NCBI GenBank assembly: GCA_902802585.1
Contig: CADCMR010000002.1
Coordinates: forward strand, 1 to 64,000
Length of the DNA stretch: 64,000 nucleotides
Reading direction: 5' to 3'
From: an uncultured bacterium
GTDB taxonomy: Bacteria; Verrucomicrobiota; Lentisphaeria; Victivallales; UBA1829
Shown: positions 24,926 to 55,982 of the stretch, piece by piece
Position numbering within the stretch: position 1 is the first letter of the stretch
How the letters are laid out: every line of letters begins with the position of its first letter
Program-made: the position numbers and the translations under genes
Notes under the pieces: model-generated
Database searches by the model: none
The model's input: the letters and a program-made list of their open reading frames with translations, nothing else
What the model was told of the DNA's origin: nothing

Positions 24926-24953
24926 TTGTTTTTTACAGGATGGATGGTATATT
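24926..24953 (+). promoter_or_regulatory. Promoter of the DUF805 gene
   Basis: TTGTTT (24926-24931), 16-nt spacer, TATATT (24948-24953). The leader to 25065 is about 105 nt; I see no riboswitch in it. Confidence 0.65.
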
Positions 24954-28001: not shown

Positions 28002-28030
28002 TTGATATTTCGGGATTTGCATGATATATT
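28002..28030 (+). promoter_or_regulatory. Promoter of the giant repeat protein gene
   Basis: TTGATA (28002-28007), 17-nt spacer, TATATT (28025-28030), about 100 nt before the ATG at 28134. Confidence 0.7.
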
Positions 28031-43360: not shown

Positions 43361-43388
43361 AATATACTTCATTCCGAAAGAAAAACAA
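43361..43388 (-). promoter_or_regulatory. Promoter of the first pseudopilin gene
   Basis: Minus strand: TTGTTT (43383-43388), 16-nt spacer, TATATT (43361-43366), about 60 nt before the start at 43299. Confidence 0.65.
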
Positions 43389-54040: not shown

Positions 54041-54745
54041 TTATTTCCTGTCAGGCTTAGCCTCGGCTTTTTCCTTTGGCAGGAATGTCAGTTTCGTGGA
54101 GACTTCGTAGTTCTTCGGATCTTTCAGCATCTCCAGGACTTCGGCGGGCGGATTCAGCACCGTGCCGTCCTTGTCGATTTGCGCCTTGTCCGTCACTTTT
54201 TTGACCTCAAGTCCGGTCGTGGCGAACTGCACGAACCCGACTTCCCAGCCGTCGTCCTTCGGCTCCGCCTTCAAAATGTACGAATACGGCTTCATCATGA
54301 AGACATACTCTGGGTTGAGCTTGGTCTGTTCCATAATGTACAGGTTGTCGAGCGCCATGAAGAAGAACAGCGTCCCCCCCTGCCGGAACGGCACGACGAC
54401 CACGGGCAGCCATGTCTCGGTCGGGGCTTTGTCCTTGTCGCCGCTGTCGGTCATCGTCACCATGCCGCGCAAGGCACACCCCTCGAAACTCTTTTTCACG
54501 ACAGTTTCGAGGTCTTTCGATTCCGTCTTGTACTCGCTGAACACGACTTTGATGTCGTCGTCGCTCGCCTTGAGCGTCCCGGCTTTCAGCAGCGCGGCGC
54601 TGACTTCGGCATCGAACATCTCCGCCTTGCTGTTGTCGTCGACTGGCGGATAGTACAGCGGGGTGATTCCGCAGGACGCGAAAAATAATACGGCACAGAT
54701 AGATGCGGCGAGGATGCGTCCGCCGCGGAACAGTGATTGCAGCAT
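54041..54745 (-). CDS. Lipoprotein of unknown function
   Basis: The start at 54745 (MLQSLFRGG) gives a lipoprotein signal with lipobox LFFASC (Cys25); the longer frame to 54823 adds Cys/Arg-rich sequence without a signal. The mature part of about 210 residues is mixed alpha/beta, with segments such as KVVFSEYKTESKDLETVVKK and TWLPVVVVPFRQGGTLFFFM. I do not recognise a family. It is transcribed alone, with a hairpin downstream and the predicted small RNA upstream. The 166 nt between RNA and gene contain AT-rich sequence but no promoter I would defend. Confidence 0.65.
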   Translation of the reverse strand: MLQSLFRGGRILAASICAVLFFASCGITPLYYPPVDDNSKAEMFDAEVSAALLKAGTLKASDDDIKVVFSEYKTESKDLETVVKKSFEGCALRGMVTMTDSGDKDKAPTETWLPVVVVPFRQGGTLFFFMALDNLYIMEQTKLNPEYVFMMKPYSYILKAEPKDDGWEVGFVQFATTGLEVKKVTDKAQIDKDGTVLNPPAEVLEMLKDPKNYEVSTKLTFLPKEKAEAKPDRK

Positions 54746-54911
54746 GGTCAAAACCTTTCTCCTGAATGGGGGTTCGTTCCGGCGGAAACAGAATCGGGGA
54801 GAGCATTCCGCCGTACATGACAATAGACCGTCTTTCCTCGAAAAAGTTCCATCTTTTCAGAGGTCTTTCCGGGAAAAAGAGATGCGGCGGCTCACACATC
54901 GCGTATTAGGA

Positions 54912-55017
54912 CAAAAAAGGTCAAGGCAGTGATTGCCAGCCTCCGAGGCACTGTTGAAAACACCTCTCAACCGGGGACCAATCCCCCGGCGGTTCTACGC
55001 AATCTAAACCTTGACTC
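54912..55017 (-). ncRNA. Predicted structured small RNA with own promoter and terminator
   Basis: On the minus strand, a roughly 105-nt transcript would start at about 55017 and fold into a closed three-way structure. Outer stem: GTCAAGG (55009-55015) with CCTTGAC. Second stem: GATTGC with GCAATC. Inside are two hairpins: CCGGGG...CCCCGG, and GAGG-TGTT...AACA...CCTC. The outer stem is followed by CTTTTTT, a terminator. A TTGCAT-16-TATATT promoter lies just upstream so that initiation falls at the base of the first stem. It does not match tRNA, 4.5S, tmRNA or RNase P RNA as I know them. There is no open reading frame of note. It lies in the 355-nt gap 54746-55100. Confidence 0.6.
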
Positions 55018-55024
55018 ATTTCTT

Positions 55025-55052
55025 AATATAGCCGTAATTATCGGGGATGCAA
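55025..55052 (-). promoter_or_regulatory. Promoter of the predicted small RNA
   Basis: Minus strand: TTGCAT (55047-55052), 16-nt spacer, TATATT (55025-55030). The expected start is about 55018, at the foot of the RNA's closing stem. Confidence 0.65.
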
Positions 55053-55100: not shown

Positions 55101-55982
55101 TCAGTATTCCTTGATATTCAGCACCACCACCGGGGTCGCGACGCAGACGGACCAGTAGATGCACATCACGGCGAACGATTTGATGATGCTGTCCCAGTTG
55201 ACGGCGTCGATGGTGAACATCTGCGAATACCCGTCCATCACGCGGGTGATGAGAAACGGCCTGATCTCCTCCGTGAATTGCGAAAACGCGACCTGCATGA
55301 TGAAGCTCACGAAGAAGAACACGAGTCCGCCCGTCGCCGCCACGGTCATGCGCTTCACGAAAACCGAGATCATGAACGACACCGAGCTGATCGCGGACAG
55401 CGCGAACGCGGAGTAAAGCGTGGCAAGGAAATAGGATGCTATGGCCTTGTTCGCCGAGACCAGACCCGCCGTGGGAAATTCCCCCGGCACGCCCATGAAC
55501 AGGGTGATCTGCACTTTCGAGTAACCGAAGAACACGAGACCGATCAGCATCGTCAGCGTCGCGAAAAGCATCGAATAGAACAGAATGACGAGAAACACGG
55601 CGATGAACTTCGCGACCACGAACTGCGTGCGGGAGAACCCGCGCGACAGATACGCACGCAGCGTCCCGTCCTGCTGTTCACATGCGATGGCCTCGCCCGC
55701 GAACATGAACGCGAAGATAGGCATCACGACCCAGAACAGGATCTGGCAGGAGAAACGCGCGAACATCAGGCCGTCGCAGAGCGTGAGCGGTTCCGATGCC
55801 ATCATCCTCATGAGATAGGGCATCCCCTGCACCATCCCGTCGGCCGCTTCCGAAAACTTGTCCTGGAATTTCCAGTAGACAAAGACCATCATGACCATCA
55901 GGAACGCAAAGCCGATGAGCATGATGTAATGCTTCTTCTGGGACGCCATCTTCACGATTTCATGGTAGATCGACAGAATCAT
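55101..55982 (-). CDS. ABC-2-type transporter permease
   Basis: The 293 residues have six hydrophobic helices, beginning YIMLIGFAFLMVMMVFVYW and ending FAVMCIYWSVCVATPVVVLN. The loop GEAIACEQQDGTLRAYLSRG is typical of ABC-2 permeases. Its ATG overlaps the ATPase stop by four bases, so the pair is translationally coupled. Substrate unknown; drug, lipid or glycan export are the usual options. The gap after it contains no clear terminator before the small RNA. Confidence 0.85.
   Translation of the reverse strand: MILSIYHEIVKMASQKKHYIMLIGFAFLMVMMVFVYWKFQDKFSEAADGMVQGMPYLMRMMASEPLTLCDGLMFARFSCQILFWVVMPIFAFMFAGEAIACEQQDGTLRAYLSRGFSRTQFVVAKFIAVFLVILFYSMLFATLTMLIGLVFFGYSKVQITLFMGVPGEFPTAGLVSANKAIASYFLATLYSAFALSAISSVSFMISVFVKRMTVAATGGLVFFFVSFIMQVAFSQFTEEIRPFLITRVMDGYSQMFTIDAVNWDSIIKSFAVMCIYWSVCVATPVVVLNIKEY

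Follow-up and report, generated by a model that had tools for sequence, protein, structure and literature searches.

A candidate lineage-specific small RNA gene beside an ABC transporter operon in an uncultured Victivallales bacterium

The 64,000-nt stretch of contig CADCMR010000002.1 analysed here (the window) carries, on its minus strand, a 105-nt element that on balance probably represents a stand-alone, lineage-specific gene for a non-coding small RNA (sRNA), predicted to be transcribed independently. The first-pass annotation had left open a regulatory RNA or a leader of the downstream lipoprotein gene. An independent non-coding structured RNA of ~105 nt is the better reading because the element combines a promoter of the lineage's own type, non-coding codon usage, no match in Rfam, and a fold that outperforms its shuffles; the leader proposal is unsupported. 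Also counted in favour of an sRNA are the near-unit pairing of the outer stems, a nested layout unique in the window, a separate promoter-like site for the lipoprotein gene, and the ~150 nt of extra DNA in the gap. Counted against it are the lack of any homologue found, a terminator stem with a large loop, the failure to detect Hfq or CsrA, and the lack of a convincing target. Coordinates of the element and its surroundings are collected in Table 1.

Table 1. Features of the permease–lipoprotein interval, in the direction of minus-strand transcription.
Feature	Position	Strand	Basis
ABC-2 type permease, upstream gene	55101..55982	-	Pfam PF12679, 6.4e-13
Promoter TTGCAT, 16-nt spacer, TATATT	55025..55052	-	Sequence match; TTGCAT 55052-55047, TATATT 55030-55025
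Candidate structured RNA, 105 nt	54912..55016	-	Fold against shuffles, Rfam null, non-coding ORF score
Closing stem, 5' arm GTCAAGG	55009..55015	-	Pair probabilities 0.98-1.0 with 54920-54926
Second stem, 5' arm GATTGC	54999..55004	-	Pair probability ~1.0 with 54931-54936
Internal hairpin CCGGGG-GATTGGT-CCCCGG	54971..54989	-	Pair probability ~0.6; one of two rival interior folds
Second stem, 3' arm GCAATC	54931..54936	-	Second stem of 6 bp, pair probability ~1.0
Closing stem, 3' arm CCTTGAC	54920..54926	-	Partner of 55009-55015, pair probabilities 0.98-1.0
T6 run, presumed transcription end	54913..54918	-	Sequence; one C (54919) separates closing stem from T6
Remnant of ancestral terminator hairpin: loop, right arm and T5	54871..54903	-	Alignment with L003, L006 and L012 gaps
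ECF-sigma-like promoter of lipoprotein gene, GGAAC-N16-GGTC	54826..54850	-	Conserved motif, downstream of element and T6
Lipoprotein-like protein (FASCG), downstream gene	54041..54745	-	No Pfam family

Read along the minus strand from 55052 to 54912, the layout is TTGCAT-16 nt-TATATT-AAGAAATG-AGTCAAGG...CCTTGACC-TTTTTT-G. The promoter proposed in the first-pass annotation is confirmed as a motif on this strand, and it matches the promoter type of the lineage. Allowing at most three mismatches, TTGCAT-N16-TATATT occurs 22 times in the window against 9.7 expected, and GCTATATTA with at most one mismatch occurs nine times against 1.2. On a rough gene map based on codon usage, in which intergenic DNA makes up 12%, ten other matches are intergenic, each preceding a called gene start on its own strand by 54-119 nt. 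A matrix built from these ten sites, excluding that of the element, places the element's site 18th of ~128,000 positions, at 14.7 bits versus 22-34 for the training sites; the latter were chosen by their likeness to the element's own site, and the rank is no gauge of promoter strength. Judged by this recurrence, promoters of this type are real in the window, and the element bears a fair copy of the motif. The housekeeping promoter of the lineage appears to resemble TTG...-16-TATATTA; copies ahead of genes are easily found, for example at 24926-24953 (+), 43361-43388 (-) and 28003-28030 (+).

The 105-nt segment has a minimum free energy of -41.4 kcal/mol (z = -2.98), and none of 200 dinucleotide shuffles is equally stable. 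The 7-bp closing stem and 6-bp second stem described earlier are both present with pair probabilities near 1, the former extended by one T-G pair. The two internal hairpins described with them are not firmly predicted: the CCGGGG hairpin is of intermediate probability, and GCCT-CGG-AGGC is missing from the minimum-energy fold. For the GC-rich interior, the prediction does not settle between two competing folds, both of which leave the closing stem intact. The T6 run likewise exists, not directly adjacent to the closing stem as had been stated but one nucleotide beyond it. A scan for hairpin terminators does not list this site, because the closing stem spans a loop of ~80 nt; a loop of this size closed by the terminator stem is unusual for intrinsic termination. 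Perfect stems of 7 bp or more with T5 behind them occur seven times in the window versus 1.95 times per shuffle. The nested arrangement, in which T5 follows a closing stem (minimum 7 bp) that encloses an inner one (minimum 6 bp), occurs once, versus 0.03 times per shuffled window, an optimistic figure whose true odds are weaker because the definition was set after the element had been seen.

An ATG at 55019, where transcription is expected to begin, opens a frame of 32 codons that crosses the element and stays open up to a TGA inside the closing stem, an arrangement that could denote a leaderless mRNA for the peptide MSQGLDC...QSLP (55019-54921). The codon score of this frame is -19, however, below all 563 gene windows of equal length (5th percentile, +2.6), and the peptide has no convincing homologue in the family, its weak matches falling in unrelated sequence and mostly containing stops. 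By codon usage the element is non-coding, and a peptide-encoding message is a most improbable explanation.

Searches for relatives of the element yielded none that is convincing. The covariance models of Rfam release 15 give no match at the gathering score or up to E = 10. BLASTN against 61 relatives finds the element alone, in a single copy in its genome. A covariance model of the element (R1), run against 36 genomes of the family, 137 of the order and 388 of the phylum, retrieves the element and otherwise one chance-level match; R1 was built from a single sequence and loses strongly diverged relatives, so the absence holds for moderately similar ones. The one other match, in G031 (23.8 bits, E 0.068), is accompanied by neither a promoter nor a T-run and was dismissed as chance. 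No conserved sequence or homologue was found in the genus, family, order or phylum sample, an absence that fits a recent gene. Missing from all related genomes searched, the element is probably not a new RNA class of wide distribution but an sRNA that was gained recently, at species level. There is a rather small chance that it is instead a structured RNA of a new kind, whose interior can switch and which may bind a protein or ligand; it would have originated in this species or been taken up by it, with relatives in unsampled strains or genomes.

Several partial likenesses were examined and set aside. The best BLASTN match in the phylum sample (86% over 43 nt, E 2.8e-6) comes from a single genome of the 388, G150 (L046 1501-1542), in which a cas5 gene (Pfam PF09704) has a start region resembling the promoter and 5' end of the element. 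Because the match is a cas5 start and the window's genome yielded no Cas5, this likeness is taken as probable chance between two AT-rich start regions. Matches of 19-20 nt from the same 388-genome search were read as starts of ribosomal protein L27 genes, the AHKKGQG reading being presumably the start of that protein, and taken as unrelated, as were the remaining short matches of this search. The sequence concerned, CACAAAAAAGGTCAAGGCAG (L048-L050, L052), is by coincidence the complement of the 3' end of the element over 19-20 nt. A stem-pattern search of a collection of genome contigs returned four matches representing one shared Bacteroidota sequence, which shows no sign of the RNA and was taken as a coding segment. 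The ends of the element do not fit the attC consensus of integrons (RYYYAAC/GTTRRRY), and a retron RNA was discarded, no reverse transcriptase being seen beside the element.

The genomic site offers a direct comparison with the element-free state. The permease, accompanied by its ATPase gene upstream of the element, has orthologues in 12 of 12 genomes of the same genus, and the lipoprotein gene adjoins it in 11. The gap between the two genes, stop codon counted, measures 134-215 nt in these relatives versus 359 nt in the window, an excess of ~150 nt over the nearest gaps. Alignment shows the element to be missing from all 11 same-genus gaps flanked by this gene pair. A search of the 12 syntenic loci with filters off yields weak matches of at most 19.1 bits, those inside the gap being short terminator hairpins. 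In the three gaps most like that of the window (L003, L006 and L012), a T-rich run follows a terminator hairpin, GCGGCGG...CCGCCGC. The window has the end of the element in place of the left arm of this ancestral hairpin, and an old stretch of ~45 nt has been replaced, not interrupted. The arrival of the element thus went along with an exchange of the gap's first half, and, with the left arm gone, the T6 run may now end the ABC operon as well.

These observations bear on two further explanations. The segment could be replacement intergenic DNA that acts only as a terminator of the ABC operon, its promoter and fold being chance features and no functional RNA being made. The gap is highly variable between species and often contains some terminator hairpin, the left arm of the ancestral hairpin is lost precisely at the end of the element, and the element is conserved nowhere among the genomes searched, all of which would suit a mere exchange of terminators. 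A terminator, however, needs neither a promoter at the foot of its closing stem nor a nested second stem, and the large loop would make a poor hairpin terminator; this account is given a minor, though substantial, share of the probability. The extra DNA relative to relatives could also point to a fragment of a mobile element or phage. Such an origin is very unlikely, given that the segment is present only once in its own genome and finds no match among phages, plasmids or viral contigs, and that the alignment shows replacement of the old DNA and no recognisable target-site duplication.

The position of the element on the same strand as the lipoprotein gene and upstream of it, together with its fold and terminal T-run, would be expected of a 5' leader acting as a riboswitch or attenuator; a leader of this gene had also been considered in the first-pass annotation. 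The comparison of gaps speaks against this proposal: eleven relatives keep the lipoprotein gene without the element, and a conserved promoter-like site lies downstream of T6. Of 12 gaps, 11 have GGAAC-N16-GGTC at 64-78 nt ahead of the ATG of the lipoprotein gene (77 nt in the window), and the twelfth (L009) has a near form, GGAAC with TAGTC. In five genomes of the genus, the stricter form of this motif occurs once per genome, always in this gap. A GGAAC element paired with GTC is the layout of promoters recognised by ECF sigma factors of the RpoE-like type. Its conservation between T6 and the ATG makes it very likely, on sequence grounds, that the lipoprotein gene has its own stress-type promoter and that the element is a separate unit. 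The alternative interior folds, moreover, leave the closing stem undisrupted, and a leader is thus left with only a slim chance. The occurrence throughout the genus (L003-L013) of an ECF-type site and a Pfam-less lipoprotein-like gene beside an ABC transporter may mark an envelope-stress unit.

Among known systems, protein-sequestering sRNAs of the CsrB/RsmZ type are similar in size to the element and carry GGA in or near hairpin loops. In the element, two hairpins have GGA in the loop or close to it, but the RNA has only these two motifs, and CsrA was not detected in the genome. Hfq was likewise not detected; the assembly is 93% complete, and either protein could have escaped the search or be encoded in the remainder. 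No convincing target emerged from a scan for pairing with 49 start regions of the window, 7 of 200 shuffles scoring equally well. 6S RNA (RF00013) is also non-coding and shares with the element ends that pair and an open region between them, but its model has 187 positions versus ~105 nt, and the element is neither matched by it nor conserved among relatives. The RF00013 model, which works in control genomes, has no match in the window or in any of 36 family genomes; 6S RNA may be absent from this family or strongly diverged. Closest in kind are orphan sRNA genes of the SIPHT class, which are intergenic and have a promoter and a Rho-independent terminator, and whose prediction leans on intergenic conservation (PMC2527527). 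The element is likewise intergenic, ~100 nt long and non-coding, with its own predicted promoter and a T-run end. It differs in lacking any of the intergenic conservation that such predictions require, and in ending at a long-range closing stem rather than a short terminator hairpin. Gains and losses of sRNAs particular to lineages have been described (PMC8557413).

For the favoured sRNA gene, a mechanism can be outlined. RNA polymerase with the housekeeping sigma factor would start at ~55019-55016 and produce a 105-nt RNA whose ends would pair as a stem of 7-8 bp enclosing the second stem of 6 bp, and transcription would stop at the T6 run. Pairing of its ends would protect the RNA, and the GC-rich interior, switchable between two folds, would be its active part. 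By analogy with sRNAs in general, the interior would most likely pair with target mRNAs in trans, independently of Hfq. The same T6 run would probably also stop readthrough from the ABC-transporter operon, whose ancestral terminator lacks its left arm.

The element is a credible candidate, as far as its sequence can indicate, for an orphan sRNA gene of an already known kind, which alone is a modest finding. If it is transcribed, it would provide a clean case of sRNA gene gain, with the element-free state preserved at the same site in eleven relatives. The gain would have taken place in a lineage in which Hfq, CsrA and a recognisable 6S RNA were not found, and the locus would be useful for studying the origin of sRNA genes.
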